From Tessaracoccus massiliensis (GTDB lineage Bacteria > Actinomycetota > Actinomycetes > Propionibacteriales > Propionibacteriaceae): a DNA stretch of 64,000 nt. Both the position numbers and the translations under genes were made by a program. The notes under the pieces are model-generated. The model did not search any database, was not told the DNA's origin, and saw only the letters and a program-made list of their open reading frames with translations. The stretch covers positions 262,926-326,925 of the forward strand of contig NZ_LN623541.1 in NCBI RefSeq assembly GCF_000826065.2. Reading direction: 5' to 3'. Shown here in pieces: positions 1,354-63,069 of this stretch. Position 1 is the first letter of the stretch. Every line of letters begins with the position of its first letter.

Positions 1354-4300
1354 ATGGCCATCACCCGAACTACCAGGAGACGTGGGGTTCGCTTCGCGTC
1401 GGTACTGACCGCCCTGTTACTGCTGACCCCCTTCGTACCGGCACAGACCGCTTCCGCAGAGCCGGTCAACCTCGGGCTGGACCGCCCCGTGCAGTCCTCC
1501 GGACAGGAGGCCGGATTCGCTGCGGAGCGGGCGTTCGACGGCAACATCGGCCCGGAGGATCCCACTCCGCCCGCGGTGCACAACGAGCCCAGCGCATCGC
1601 GCTGGTCGGGCACCGGTGACCCGGCCTGGGTCAGCGTCGATTTCGGCGCGCCCGCCACGCTTGAGAGCGTCCGGATCCGTTGGGGCAACACCTTCGCAAC
1701 CGACTATGCGCTGCTCGGCTCGGTGGACGGTACGACCTTCACGGAGTTGGAGGGCGGCCTGGCAGGCGTGCGCGCCGATTGGACCACCGTCGAGTTGTCC
1801 GAGACCGGCTACCGGCATCTCAAGGTGCAGGTGAACTCCAAGTCGACCCAATGGCCGGTCTCCATCTGGGAGATCCAGGCGCTCGGCACCCTCGACGGCG
1901 AGATCGTCGAGCCGCTGTCGGTCAACGTGATCCCGAAGCCGGCCGTCTCCGTCGCCGGCGACGGGGGCGACCTCACGCTGGACGAGGCCACCGTCGTGGT
2001 GGGCTCCGGTGAAGCTGCGGCCACCGCCGCGCAGTTCGCCGAGGAGGCGCGGCCAGCTACGGGCTTCCCGCTGACCGTTGCCGCCACCGGCACCGCCAAC
2101 GCCATCTCCTTCAAGCTGGACACCAGCCTCGAGCTACCCGGCCTCACCGACGAGCAGTACCGCCTCACGGTGACCTCCGACGGCGTGACCGTCGAGGCCC
2201 CCACCCAGGCCGGCCTGTTCTACGGCGCGCAGACGCTGCTGCAGCTCATGGGCCCGTGGGTCCGCTCGGCTGAGCCCGTCGCCCAGGAATGGACGCTGCC
2301 GGCCGTCGAGATCGAGGACGGCCCCCGCTACCAGTACCGCGGTTTCATGTTCGACGTGTCGCGCAGCTTCGTGCCCGTCGACGAGATCAAGGAAGTGCTC
2401 GACGAGATGTCGGCGCACAAGCTCAACGTGCTGCACTGGCACCTGAGCGACGACCAAGGCTGGCGCATCGCGATCAGCAACGAGGGCAAGGTGGAGGGCG
2501 ACCCCATCGACTACTCGCTGCTGGCGCTGCGCTCCGGCGCCACCGCCGTCGCCACCACGCAGTGGACCGACCTCCCGGGCCGCACCGGCTTCTACGACGC
2601 CGACGAGTTCGCCGAGATCATCGCCTACGCCGACGAGCGGCACATCGCCGTCGTCCCCGAGATCGACGGCCCGGCCCACTCCAACGCGATCCTGCACGCC
2701 ATCCCCGAGCTCAACTCCGAGGGCAGCTACCCGCGCCTGACCGAGGGCCAGACGGTGGCGCCGCCCATCACCAACACCAGCGTGGGCGAGTCCAGCCTGG
2801 ATGCGGGCAACGAACTGACCTACACGTTCATGCGTCACGTGTTCAAGCAGCTCATCGAGGACAACGCCACCCTGGTCAACGGTGAGCGCTACTTCCACAT
2901 CGGCGGCGACGAGTCGCACAACACCTCTGATGCCGCCTACCGCACTTACATGGAGCGCACCACCGGCATCGTTGAAGACTTGGGCGCCATCCCCATGGCG
3001 TGGAACGAGGCGTTCAACCAGGCTCCCGAGCAGATGCCTGACGGTTCGGTCATCCACCACTGGGTGGGCGGCGTGAGCGCCACGGCCCGCACCCTGATCA
3101 ACACCCGCGATATGAAGATCGTCATGTCGCCGGCCGGCAACGCCTACCTGCCTCAGGTCCCCGGCCCCGGCATCCTCGGTCCCGCGTGGGCCTGCGGTGG
3201 CGGCGGCTGCGGCATCAACCAGTTCTACAACTGGAACCCCACTGCGCAGGCCGGCGTCGCCGAGGCCTCGGTGCTGGGTGTTTCCGCCGCCATCTGGCAG
3301 GAGCACATCCGCAGCCTGAACTCGCTGGAGTACCTCATGTACCCCCGCCTGATGGCCACCGCCGAGGTGGGGTGGACTCCCCAGGGAGAGCGCACCATCG
3401 CTGATTTCCGTGAACGTCTCACCACCCTGGGCACCGCCCTGACGGTGGAGGGCCGCAACTTCTTCCCGTCGGACGGCACCTGGGAACTCGACGTCCGCGG
3501 CGCGGTACTTCCCGAGCTGGCCGAGGACGAGGCGCCGGGTGTGGTGGGCTGGGCCTCGCTGCCCAACGCCACCGATGCCGATGTCAGCGCCACCCTCGAG
3601 ATCGGCGGCGAGACCATCACGCTCGACGCCACCGCTGAGCGGATCTACAAGGATGGCGTGGGCGCCAAGTTCGACGACCGTCAGGTCAACTCGATCTTCG
3701 TGCTCACCACCGACGAGGCTCTCCCCGTCGGTGAACACACCGCCACCATCACGGTCACGGGCAAGGGCGCCACCAAGACGGCGCAGCTGCCCATCACGGT
3801 GGCCGCTGCCAATGAGGCTCCCACCCTCGCCACCCTGGGCAACGCCGTCTTCCAGGCGGGTGCCGCTGTCTCGATCCAGGTGGTCGCCACCGATCCCGAC
3901 GGCGACGCCCTCACCTATTCCGCTGACGGCCTGCCCGCTGGGCTGGCCATCGATGGGGCCACCGGCCTGATCTCCGGCACCACCGACGCGGTGGGCGACC
4001 ACACCGTCACCGTGACCGTCGATGACGGCAACGGCGGCACCGCCACCCGCAGCTTCACGCTGACGGTGACGACGAAGCCCACCCCGACGGAACCGACCGA
4101 CGAGCCGACCGCAGACCCCACGGACGACCCCACGCAGCAGCCCACGACGCCTCCTGTGAAGAAGTACGTCCGCACGGCGCCGTACACCCTGGCCGGGCTG
4201 CACCGGAACCTCAACGGTCGTGACTGGAACACCACCTGCGAGCCCTACTCGCAGACCGAGCGGTGCCGCACCGACATCTGGGCCACCATCGTGGTGATCG

Positions 4301-4593
4301 AGAACGGTCAGTTCGTCCGCAAGGACGGCTGGGCGTTTAACAACCTCACCTACCTGCCCTACATGACCCGCGAGGCCTGGGGCGCCAACCCCCTCGCCAA
4401 CACCGGCGAATGGGCCGCCACCACGGACCAGCGCCAGTGGAAGACCGAATGCGACACCGCTCGCACCGGCCGCAACGGCTGCCGCTCCTACACGTTCGTG
4501 ACGGTCTACAAGGCCACCGCGAAGCCCGAGGGCGGCTACGTGTTCTCGCAGAACAACGAGTGGATGTTCAACAACATCGTGATGTTCGAGTAG
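1354..4593 (+). CDS. Secreted GH20 beta-N-acetylhexosaminidase, multidomain
   Basis: Removes terminal beta-linked N-acetylglucosamine/galactosamine from glycans outside the cell. It has 1079 residues from the ATG at 1354; a TTG 12 nt upstream is possible but has no better ribosome site. Order: Sec signal peptide (1-35, cleavage after ASA), F5/8 type C/CBM32-like domain (about 45-175), GH20 N-terminal domain (185-310), GH20 barrel (318-690) with HWHLSDDQGW and the catalytic pair in HIGGDE (D519, E520), two Ig/cadherin-like domains (700-890), a Pro/Thr/Asp linker (900-930) and a C-terminal domain with four Cys (940-1079). That last domain is shared with the secreted protein at 59774-61453. There is no sortase motif and no C-terminal membrane helix. 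A TTA leucine codon lies in the signal peptide at 1417-1419, rare in this GC-rich DNA. It follows the sulfatase closely. Confidence 0.95.
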   Translation: MAITRTTRRRGVRFASVLTALLLLTPFVPAQTASAEPVNLGLDRPVQSSGQEAGFAAERAFDGNIGPEDPTPPAVHNEPSASRWSGTGDPAWVSVDFGAPATLESVRIRWGNTFATDYALLGSVDGTTFTELEGGLAGVRADWTTVELSETGYRHLKVQVNSKSTQWPVSIWEIQALGTLDGEIVEPLSVNVIPKPAVSVAGDGGDLTLDEATVVVGSGEAAATAAQFAEEARPATGFPLTVAATGTANAISFKLDTSLELPGLTDEQYRLTVTSDGVTVEAPTQAGLFYGAQTLLQLMGPWVRSAEPVAQEWTLPAVEIEDGPRYQYRGFMFDVSRSFVPVDEIKEVLDEMSAHKLNVLHWHLSDDQGWRIAISNEGKVEGDPIDYSLLALRSGATAVATTQWTDLPGRTGFYDADEFAEIIAYADERHIAVVPEIDGPAHSNAILHAIPELNSEGSYPRLTEGQTVAPPITNTSVGESSLDAGNELTYTFMRHVFKQLIEDNATLVNGERYFHIGGDESHNTSDAAYRTYMERTTGIVEDLGAIPMAWNEAFNQAPEQMPDGSVIHHWVGGVSATARTLINTRDMKIVMSPAGNAYLPQVPGPGILGPAWACGGGGCGINQFYNWNPTAQAGVAEASVLGVSAAIWQEHIRSLNSLEYLMYPRLMATAEVGWTPQGERTIADFRERLTTLGTALTVEGRNFFPSDGTWELDVRGAVLPELAEDEAPGVVGWASLPNATDADVSATLEIGGETITLDATAERIYKDGVGAKFDDRQVNSIFVLTTDEALPVGEHTATITVTGKGATKTAQLPITVAAANEAPTLATLGNAVFQAGAAVSIQVVATDPDGDALTYSADGLPAGLAIDGATGLISGTTDAVGDHTVTVTVDDGNGGTATRSFTLTVTTKPTPTEPTDEPTADPTDDPTQQPTTPPVKKYVRTAPYTLAGLHRNLNGRDWNTTCEPYSQTERCRTDIWATIVVIENGQFVRKDGWAFNNLTYLPYMTREAWGANPLANTGEWAATTDQRQWKTECDTARTGRNGCRSYTFVTVYKATAKPEGGYVFSQNNEWMFNNIVMFE

Positions 4594-59773: not shown

Positions 59774-61453
59774 TCAGGCCTTGAACATCACAATGTTGTT
59801 GAAGACCCACTCGTTCTTCTGGCTGAACTCGTAGCCGCCCCCGGTTGCGGGCGTGGCGGAGTACACCGTCGTCATGGTGTAGCTGCGGCAGCCGTTGCGA
59901 CCCGTGGCTGCGGTATCGCACTCCGTGCGCCACTGCCGGCCGCCCGCCGCGGTCCAGGCTCCGGTCTCGCCGAGCGGGTTGCCCTTCCACTCGTCACGCT
60001 CCATGAAGGGCAGGTAGGTGAGGTTGTTGAAGGCCCACCCCTGCTTCACGGTGAACTGTCCGTTCTCCAGGAGCACGACGGTGGCCCAGATCTCCGTGCG
60101 GCAGCGCTCGGTCTGCGAGTACTTCTCACAGGTGGTGACCCACTGGCGGGCGTTGAGGTCGTGGGTTCCGGCCAACGTGTAAGGAGCCGTCCGCTGGAAT
60201 TCCGGGCGGGGGCTCTTCGTCGCCGTGGGCTTCTCGGTCGGGTCCGGCTTCTGCGTCGGGTCCGGCTTGTCCGTCGGATCGGGCGAATCGGTGGGATCGG
60301 GATCCTGAGTCGGGTCTGGCGTCTCCGTCGGGTCCGGAGTGACAGTCGGGTCCGGCGTCTCCGTCGGGTCCGGGGTGACAGTCGGATCAGGCGTCTCCGT
60401 GGGATCGGGCGTCTCTGTCGGATCAGGCGTCGGTTCCACGGCTGCGTCGGCGATGGTCATGTCGAAGATCCTCATGCTTGCAGACTGCGGCAGGAGTACA
60501 GACTCCACGGTCTTGGCCGGGTCAAGGTCGATCGTGGCCACGTAGATGCCGTACTTGATGTCGGCATTGGCATACCCGGAGGGGGTGTTGCGGCCGTCCG
60601 TGGCGTAGGCGACTTTCTCGTCGAACGAGGGCGTGGCGGAGAACCAGTTGCCGAATCCGATGGTGCCGGTGGAGGTGGTGCCGTCGGTGTAGTTGATGAC
60701 GAACTCGCCGGAAGCTCCGGCGCGGCCCAGGCCGCTGCCGAGCACCGCGAGCTGTGCACCGCTGCCCTCCAGAGCGATGAGCTGGCCGCGGCTGGCGACG
60801 GCGTCAGGCTGGCCGGCTTCCACGTCCGGCCAGGTGAAGGTGGCGCCCTCAAACTCGAGGGTGGCTCCCGGCGTCACGCCGAGTTCCTCGAGCCGCTCCC
60901 GCGAGAACGAGTTGCCCTCACCGTCGTAGTTGCCGTGGGCGACGGTGTCGACGGTGGTGGTGGCGACGATGCTGCGGGACTCAGCCAGCGTCTGCGGCGT
61001 CACGTCCTGGTTCTGCTGGATGCGCGTTCCCGTGGCGACCTCGCGGACACCGGCCTCGGTGACGTAGCTGACGGTCGCCTTGAAGGTGCGCGTGGTGGGG
61101 GTCGTCGGGTTGGTGGGAACGAAGATTTCCGACGTCACCATGGTCGACCCGCCGGCGGCGAGTTCCCCGTCGAGCGTGTGGGTCTCGGGGTAGAGCGTCC
61201 AGTTGATGGGGCCGCTGACCTCGACGGTGATGTCGCTGACCGCTGCGTCGCTGATGTTGGCGATGGTGATGTCGATATCGGAGACGGCAGGGCCGTCGAG
61301 GTCCACCGGGGCGATGGAGACGGTCACCGCGCGGTCCTCGCCGCTGGCCAGCGAGGTGCTGACCATGAAGACGCCGAAGATGGTCAGCAGGGTTGCGGTG
61401 AGCAGCGCGATGCCGCGCTTCGTCCTACTCGTGGTACTGATGGTGGTTGTCAT
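59774..61453 (-). CDS. Secreted NEW3-like glycan-binding protein with shared Cys C-terminal domain
   Basis: 559 residues, no catalytic domain seen. Signal peptide (1-37), NEW3/alpha-galactosidase-associated-like beta domain (45-135), a second domain (165-335: HGNYDGEGNSFS...LEFEGATFTWPDVEAG) of the type found next to actinobacterial glycosidases, a PDPTET-type linker (345-415) and the C-terminal domain (421-559) shared with the GH20 enzyme, with four conserved Cys. The start is 3 nt after the GH109 stop, so translation is coupled with that enzyme and the protein probably acts with it. It binds but does not cut; ligand unknown. Confidence 0.85.
   Translation of the reverse strand: MTTTISTTSRTKRGIALLTATLLTIFGVFMVSTSLASGEDRAVTVSIAPVDLDGPAVSDIDITIANISDAAVSDITVEVSGPINWTLYPETHTLDGELAAGGSTMVTSEIFVPTNPTTPTTRTFKATVSYVTEAGVREVATGTRIQQNQDVTPQTLAESRSIVATTTVDTVAHGNYDGEGNSFSRERLEELGVTPGATLEFEGATFTWPDVEAGQPDAVASRGQLIALEGSGAQLAVLGSGLGRAGASGEFVINYTDGTTSTGTIGFGNWFSATPSFDEKVAYATDGRNTPSGYANADIKYGIYVATIDLDPAKTVESVLLPQSASMRIFDMTIADAAVEPTPDPTETPDPTETPDPTVTPDPTETPDPTVTPDPTETPDPTQDPDPTDSPDPTDKPDPTQKPDPTEKPTATKSPRPEFQRTAPYTLAGTHDLNARQWVTTCEKYSQTERCRTEIWATVVLLENGQFTVKQGWAFNNLTYLPFMERDEWKGNPLGETGAWTAAGGRQWRTECDTAATGRNGCRSYTMTTVYSATPATGGGYEFSQKNEWVFNNIVMFKA
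60222..60437 (-). repeat. PDPTET-coding tandem repeat (linker)
   Basis: About twelve copies of an 18-bp unit coding for PDPTxT with variations, positioned between domains of the secreted protein at 59774-61453. Typical low-complexity linker of cell-surface proteins; prone to length change. Confidence 0.85.
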
Positions 61454-61456
61454 TGG

Positions 61457-62884
61457 TCAGACCTCCGGCATCGTGCTGGGTCGGGAGTCGAGGCCCATAC
61501 GGGGCCGCTTCCACTCGCCGCGGGTGAAATCGGGCACGTCGACCGGCTGACCGCCGAGCGCGAGCGACGCTGCACTCAACGGCACCGGTGAGCACCAGGC
61601 CGCCGAATCGTAGACGTCGATGTCCGGCAGACCGCCGGTACGCATCAACTGGATGGTGCGCCACTGCATGAGGCCGTCCATGCCGCCATGTCCGCCCTGG
61701 CCGCCGACGTCGGTCCACAGCCAGTGATCGTACTGGGGGCGGAAGCCGCTGAAGTCGCGCCAGGCGTGGTCCGTGTGATCGGGCTCCATGTAGACCCGCG
61801 CTCCGGTGGATCCGCCGACGTAGTCCTCGAAGATGCCCCGGCTGCCCGCCAGGCTGTTGATCCGGCTGTAGGGCCTGGGGGTGGACACGTCGTGCTCGGC
61901 GCGCACGATGCGGCCCTTGTCTGTGGTCATCATGCAGGTGATCAGATCGCCGTTGATGTAGGTCTCGTTCCAGGAGCGGTGGCTGCGTGGCACGTGACGC
62001 TCCCGGTAATCGGCGAGGCCCTTGGCCGGCGTTGCGGTCGCGGAGAGTTTGGTAAACACGTCGCCGCGGTTGATGTCCATGGCCGCCGCGATGGGGGCCA
62101 ACCCGTGCATCGGGTAGAAGCTGGACGTGCTCCGCGTGTGCCAGAGGCGGCGCCAGTCGTCGGTGTAGTAGCCGTCGGCGAACAGGAGGTCGCGGAGATC
62201 GTGCAGGTAGCCGCCGTGTCCGTTGTGCACGTCCCCGAAGACGCCCTCGTGGGCCATCTTCAGCATCGCGAGTTCGTTGCGGCCGTAGCAGCAGTTCTCG
62301 GCCAGCATCAGATGCCTGCGGGTCTCCTCGGAGGTGTCGACGAGGCTCCACAGCTCGTCGAGTTCCATCGCTATCGGTAGTTCCACCATGACGTGGGCCC
62401 CGGCCAGCAGAGCGTCGCGGCCCTGTTCGTAGTGGAACTCCCACGGTGAGGCGATGAACACCAGGTCGAGGTCCATGTCGGCGTACATCGACTTGTAGGA
62501 ATCCGCCGAGCCCCCGTACGTCTCGGGTCTGGTACCGGTGGCTGCCGCCACGCTGTCAGCGGTGCGCCGGGCGCGTTCCTCGCGGATGTCGCATACGGCG
62601 ACCACCTGCGCGCCGGGCACGGACACCCAGCCAGGCGTCATGCTGTGGCCGCGGTTGCCGAGGCCGACGACGCCGACCCGGACGGTGTCGTACCGGTTGA
62701 ACGGCACGCCCACCATGGAGGTGCGTCCGGCCGGGCGGGGCCCGCCCCCGGTGTTGCTGATCTTGCTGTCCTGGTTTCTCAGGTCCGCCTGTGCGAACCC
62801 TCCGGCGCCGGTGGCTGCGAGCACGCTGGCTCCGACGCCCCCTGCCAGGAATCCGCGCCGTGAGGCTCTGGATGGGTGGGTCAC
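61457..62884 (-). CDS. GH109-type glycosidase (Gfo/Idh/MocA fold), TAT-exported
   Basis: NAD-dependent alpha-N-acetylgalactosaminidase family; releases GalNAc from glycans. 475 residues from a GTG at 62884 with AGGAG upstream. TAT signal SRRGFLAGG (residues 8-16), Rossmann motif VGVVGLGNRGHSM, catalytic-type block in the conserved GGHGGMD, and TATPAKGLADYRERHVP as in other GH109 proteins. It is first in the operon with the secreted binding protein. Export with a folded cofactor explains the TAT route. Confidence 0.92.
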   Translation of the reverse strand: MTHPSRASRRGFLAGGVGASVLAATGAGGFAQADLRNQDSKISNTGGGPRPAGRTSMVGVPFNRYDTVRVGVVGLGNRGHSMTPGWVSVPGAQVVAVCDIREERARRTADSVAAATGTRPETYGGSADSYKSMYADMDLDLVFIASPWEFHYEQGRDALLAGAHVMVELPIAMELDELWSLVDTSEETRRHLMLAENCCYGRNELAMLKMAHEGVFGDVHNGHGGYLHDLRDLLFADGYYTDDWRRLWHTRSTSSFYPMHGLAPIAAAMDINRGDVFTKLSATATPAKGLADYRERHVPRSHRSWNETYINGDLITCMMTTDKGRIVRAEHDVSTPRPYSRINSLAGSRGIFEDYVGGSTGARVYMEPDHTDHAWRDFSGFRPQYDHWLWTDVGGQGGHGGMDGLMQWRTIQLMRTGGLPDIDVYDSAAWCSPVPLSAASLALGGQPVDVPDFTRGEWKRPRMGLDSRPSTMPEV

Positions 62885-63069
62885 TGAAGTCTCCTGTGTG
62901 TCGAATTTCGAGCGGCAGACCACTGCGTCTGCCGCTGTGAGAACGCTTCGGCACTCACACGTTGTTCACCTGAACCTAGCGATAACAGGATTCAGCTACG
63001 TCTGATGAAGCCATTCACTCACTCGGACTGCGCAGAAGTTACACAAACCCTGAGCCCCAGTGGGCGGTA

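Follow-up and report, generated by a model that had tools for sequence, protein, structure and literature searches.

A four-cysteine domain of exported Tessaracoccus proteins as a putative non-covalent cell-wall-binding module

The window, a stretch of 64,000 nucleotides of Tessaracoccus massiliensis (contig NZ_LN623541.1, positions 262,926 to 326,925), contained two genes for exported proteins, a GH20 enzyme and a protein of 559 residues, sharing a domain of about 140 residues that belongs to an unnamed family and is called here the four-Cys domain. The two copies were 72% identical. The features of the window were as follows (basis of each in brackets):

1354..4593, + strand: exported GH20 enzyme, 1079 aa, with signal peptide, F5/8-C, GH20b, GH20, Ig-like domain, Pro/Thr/Asp linker and four-Cys domain (Pfam, sequence)
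2329..3381, + strand: GH20 catalytic domain, residues 326-676 (Pfam PF00728, E 3e-68)
4072..4170, + strand: Pro/Thr/Asp linker, about residues 907-939 (sequence; DNA blocks in common with other genes start inside it)
4171..4590, + strand: four-Cys domain copy 1, residues 940-1079 (genome search, alignment, AlphaFold)
4195..4353, + strand: lobe 1, model strands 12-17, 20-29, 32-47 and 50-64, Cys 962 and 971 (AlphaFold/DSSP; invariant Cys)
4405..4584, + strand: lobe 2, model strands 82-85, 92-97, 106-120 and 126-141, Cys 1033 and 1043 (AlphaFold/DSSP; lobe-lobe similarity)
59774..61453, - strand: second exported protein, 559 aa, with signal peptide, NEW3-like N-terminal part, long Pro/Thr/Asp linker and four-Cys domain (Pfam, sequence)
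59780..60193, - strand: four-Cys domain copy 2, residues 421-558 (genome search, alignment)
60194..60440, - strand: PDPTETPDPT linker, approximate limits (sequence)

Both copies lay where an earlier sequence-only reading had placed them (residues 940-1079 of the 1079-aa GH20 protein and 421-558 of the 559-aa protein), were preceded by a Pro/Thr/Asp-rich linker and closed their proteins, as it had also described. The NEW3-like part of the 559-aa protein scored 21.9 bits with PF10633, below the cut-off of 24.4. Read by eye, a sulfatase-like ORF (1-1317, + strand) adjoined copy 1, and a gene for a Gfo/Idh-like protein whose start is twin-arginine-like (61457-62923, - strand) adjoined copy 2; the neighbourhoods of both copies look like those of glycan breakdown genes.

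With copy 1 as query, the own genome (17 contigs, 3.21 Mb in all) gave 60 matches, fragments counted, a number far above chance. ORFs from 36 stretches of this genome provided 54 near-complete copies (match longer than 100 of the 140 query residues; shorter or broken matches excluded), and the four cysteines were kept in all 54. There were exactly four cysteines in every row of alignments A1 (52/52) and A2 (80/80), and four in each of the 32 members of set A4, which includes a second family (f31). Protein-level counts for the own genome refer to 51 proteins (set A3), obtained from the 54 by dropping one without a start, one truncated and a deacetylase protein that was scanned separately. Pfam, NCBIfam and PDB sequences gave no convincing relative of the domain, and Pfam matches were weak and scattered; the best, DUF6147, reached E 0.0042 in a single one of 32 members.

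The two halves of the domain, with cysteines at domain positions 23/32 and 94/104, were clearly related to each other: HHalign of lobe 1 against lobe 2 gave a probability of 98.9, an E-value of 2.8e-17 and a score of 81.9, while 200 column-shuffled controls reached at most 19.9, none of them equalling the real score. The two-fold internal repeat reported earlier is therefore real, its spacing being about 71 residues and not 65. The AlphaFold model, a confident one (pLDDT 94.8), showed four beta strands followed by four more, a strand order agreeing with the two similar lobes that had been predicted, and judging from the spacing of the cysteines there is probably one disulfide per lobe. A single fold comparison of the model gave no clear counterpart.

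The domain was not always C-terminal, as had been supposed. It ended at most 21 residues from the end in 40 of the 51 own-genome proteins, one of these being a signal peptide and the domain with little else; in the other 11 it lay at most 70 residues from the start and was followed by more than 21 residues. The same positions were conserved in the N-terminal and C-terminal forms. Signal-peptide-like starts, scored by a crude hydrophobicity rule, were found in 49 of 51 domain proteins vs. 112 of 294 other long ORFs from the same stretches, and neither LPxTG nor a membrane-like stretch was present in the last 60 residues of any of the 51. The carriers look exported, differ widely in their catalytic domains and lack a sortase motif or membrane-like stretch at their ends; their earlier description as a glycan-active set was too narrow, peptidases, phosphatases and LRR proteins being clients as well.

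Peptidoglycan-type enzymes recurred as clients in the own genome and in two low-copy genomes. A Pfam scan of 10 chosen own-genome proteins (two without a match, one C5-epimerase) revealed M23, NlpC/P60, YkuD (L,D-transpeptidase), RPF-type transglycosylase, polysaccharide deacetylase, CAP and M14 domains. A tally over the 51 proteins, together with scans of some of them one by one, added seven GH20, two GH101, GH35, GH92, GH3, two subtilases, metallophosphatases and a 5'-nucleotidase, together with LRR and BNR-repeat proteins. In G022 (11 copies, 10 scanned) the clients were M23, DPBB lytic transglycosylase, YkuD and M15, so that clear peptidoglycan-type enzymes were only 4 of the 10, plus C5-epimerase, LRR and GHL10, with three lacking a match. 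In G030 (10 chosen of 16 copies) they were M23, NlpC/P60, YkuD, transglycosylase, deacetylase, two CAP, C5-epimerase and LRR, with one lacking a match.

The linker and domain were copied as a DNA cassette. Forty-four gene pairs had 400 nt or more of DNA in common, 80-97% identical, across linker, domain and stop; in 38 of the 44 the common block started 6-146 nt upstream of the domain, and its end fell between 17 nt short of the last codon and 171 nt beyond it. Seven of the best 45 rows in the shared-DNA list were not cassette-like (overlapping neighbours or other stretches). The window GH20 gene and a GH35 gene, which differ in their catalytic parts, shared a stretch of 500 nt at 89.2% identity that set in 78 nt upstream of the domain. 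A tree of 130 domain copies, built from few columns and with many open forks, placed 25 own-genome copies and three from close MAGs in one clade (SH-aLRT 96); T. bendigoensis (89) and T. rhinocerotis (88) each had a group of seven. The domains of orthologous nucleotidases were not clearly more diverged than their enzymes, so domain replacement within one orthologue is not established. Broken short pieces of the domain were also seen in the own genome (C13:116856, C12:45773, C16:702591 and C16:123790; L037, L033, L054 and L047, respectively), and are perhaps relics of cassette exchange.

Among 60 genomes (the own, 35 of the genus and 24 of the order), 15 carried the domain, all in the genus. 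Copy numbers in the 36 genus genomes were 59 here by this screen, 11-66 in 13 others, 1 in G019 and 0 in 21. The screens of the class and the phylum, with at most 10 candidates scored per genome, gave six matches in 394 genomes (the own genome, four of family f31 and one contig-end fragment) and the own genome only in 396, respectively. The best 80 of 294 matching stretches came from Tessaracoccus species and from Arachnia, Propionibacterium or Propionibacteriaceae MAGs. Searches for phage, plasmid or viral relatives found none. Carriers, 12 in number, were scattered among non-carriers in an rpoB tree covering 31 genomes (seven changes, at least five of them forced; 26 of 500 shuffles were as low). 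Three pairs of sister genomes in this tree (G020/G029, G022/G023 and G019/G031) had 39, 11 or 1 copies in one member and none in the other, contrasts that would mean wholesale gain or loss of the domain.

In four of the five genomes of family f31, the copies numbered exactly three and lay in one cluster. Its domains were 23-29% identical to copy 1 and kept all four cysteines. In G103, the f31 genome that was scanned, the cluster (L199, 7086-12051, - strand) encoded three apparent peptidoglycan enzymes, an Amidase_2 protein, a SpoIID protein and a third protein with an M15-like motif but no such Pfam match; the domain lay towards the C-terminus in all three. These clients suggest a wall ligand, and we take them, with the recurrent peptidoglycan-type clients described above, as a sign that the domain originally acted at the wall.

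Orthologous enzymes carried, in the same position after a linker, either the domain or an LPxTG-like tail. A 5'-nucleotidase match was present in 34 of 39 genus genomes, and at 30 orthologous loci the enzyme ended in the domain in 12 cases, in [LP]PxTG followed by one to four residues in 16, in neither in two and in both in none; the shares and the association with carrier genomes depend partly on how a carrier is defined, but the exclusion within one enzyme does not. Similarly, the GH20 orthologue of G011 (61% identical) ended in the domain like that of the own genome (G000), that of G009 (58% identical), a genome in which no domain was found, ended in a Pro-rich linker and PGLPKTGC-stop, and the GH20 of G001 (44% identical) ended in PGLPQTGR-stop. 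The pattern PGLPxTGx-stop occurred 165 times across the 39 genus genomes (in 32 of them), vs. twice for a reversed control pattern. It sat behind mostly Pro-rich linkers and was not followed by a hydrophobic tail (e.g. L292, the GH20 end of G009; L329-L332 in the own genome; L336-L340 in G009). A hydrophobic tail is thought necessary for sortase substrates, and the PGLPxTG tail may be a new sorting signal. The domain profile matched none of 54 distinct PGLPxTGx-stop ORFs, many of them incomplete at the front. Sortases were encoded in all 39 genus genomes, domain carriers and non-carriers alike, so the domain is not a simple replacement of sortase; the short tail was still used in domain-carrying genomes (G022, G015), and its genus-wide counts showed no significant difference when carriers were compared with non-carriers (P 0.10).

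Several known surface modules resemble the domain in part. According to a review (PMC5817068), the WxL domain (PF13731) binds peptidoglycan non-covalently and has two W-x-L motifs, the distal one within YXXX(L/I/V)TWXLXXXP; it is similar in size, lies near the C-terminus of exported proteins and has its tryptophan motif twice. The four-Cys domain differs in repeating W-x-T-x-C in both lobes, in its four invariant cysteines and in having N-terminal copies. The review describes CWB2 and SLH as non-covalent wall modules common to whole groups of exported proteins, enzymes among them (e.g. the C. difficile Cwp proteins; PMC5817068), a plan that the four-Cys domain would share. It departs from them in its four-Cys beta lobes and in that a protein has, as a rule, a single domain, which is in turn a two-fold repeat. 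The two window copies and the 32 A4 members gave no Pfam match at E up to 1 to WxL, CWB2, SLH, LysM, SH3 or PG_binding, and the domain has W-x-T-x-C instead of the W-x-L motifs. LPXTG sortase substrates, which have LPxTG, a hydrophobic stretch and a charged tail at the C-terminus, correspond in the position of the tail, whereas the four-Cys domain is a folded unit of 140 residues that may be N-terminal, and neither LPxTG nor a membrane-like stretch stands at any of the 51 protein ends. LysM and SH3b modules occur on peptidoglycan hydrolases, and the four-Cys domain is likewise found on peptidoglycan-type enzymes.

Non-covalent wall retention, as for the WxL, CWB2 or SLH modules, is the best-supported function for a domain that by sequence is none of these, and the four-Cys domain is probably a cell-wall-binding module of this kind. 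The surface retention suggested by the sequence-only reading is favoured by the exported-looking and varied enzymes, the recurrent peptidoglycan-type clients, the absence of another anchor at the protein ends and the exchange with the LPxTG-like tail; its generality as a C-terminal tag of glycan-active proteins did not stand. The very many copies per genome, and their nearly all-or-none occurrence in the genus (0 in 21 genomes, 11-66 in 14 and 1 in one), would also fit a protein lattice that is kept or lost, with the domain docking by protein-protein contact onto an S-layer-like lattice or some other surface protein and not onto wall glycan. This is unlikely, given that the distant f31 genomes have only three copies in one cluster, borne in G103 by the amidase, SpoIID and M15-like proteins.

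A carbohydrate-binding module targeting enzymes to external substrates such as mucin, host or plant glycans would account for the many GH20, GH35, GH92, GH101, BNR-repeat and mucin-binding clients, and presence on glycoside hydrolases would indeed be expected of a substrate-binding module. There is no reason to expect that L,D-transpeptidase, NlpC/P60, M23 or nucleotidase clients need a substrate of this kind, however, and the module swaps places with an LPxTG-like tail; this reading is improbable. Least likely of all, with only a very slight chance, is a sorting or secretion signal removed en route, like the type 9 secretion C-terminal domain: the many copies per genome and the mostly C-terminal position (40/51) recall that system, but it is confined to the C-terminus, whereas in 11 of 51 proteins the four-Cys domain lies near the start and more than 21 residues follow it, both forms keep the conserved positions, and one protein is little besides the domain.

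Under the preferred reading, wall binding, a signal peptide would export the client protein and the module would fold into two beta lobes, probably with a single disulfide closing each, holding the protein on the wall via peptidoglycan or a glycan attached to peptidoglycan while the flexible linker presents the catalytic part. The original clients would probably have been peptidoglycan-remodelling enzymes, on which the module would work near the N-terminus too; in some lineages the linker-domain cassette would then have been copied by recombination onto dozens of exported enzymes (GH20, GH35, GH92, GH101, nucleotidase, subtilases). Of this scheme, we infer the disulfides, the order of client gain, the wall location and the ligand.

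Tentatively, and with somewhat more doubt than confidence, the genus may possess two interchangeable surface-retention tags, the four-Cys wall-binding domain spread as a linker-domain-stop cassette and the tail-less PGLPxTG, between which whole lineages switch. If so, the way in which much of the secretome is anchored would be an evolving trait. The unnamed domain probably explains how some fifty exported proteins encoded in a 3.2 Mb genome stay at the surface; it would provide the Propionibacteriaceae with a second, non-covalent route beside sortase, for which the same enzyme with either tag is a natural experiment, and it is a candidate tool for surface display.
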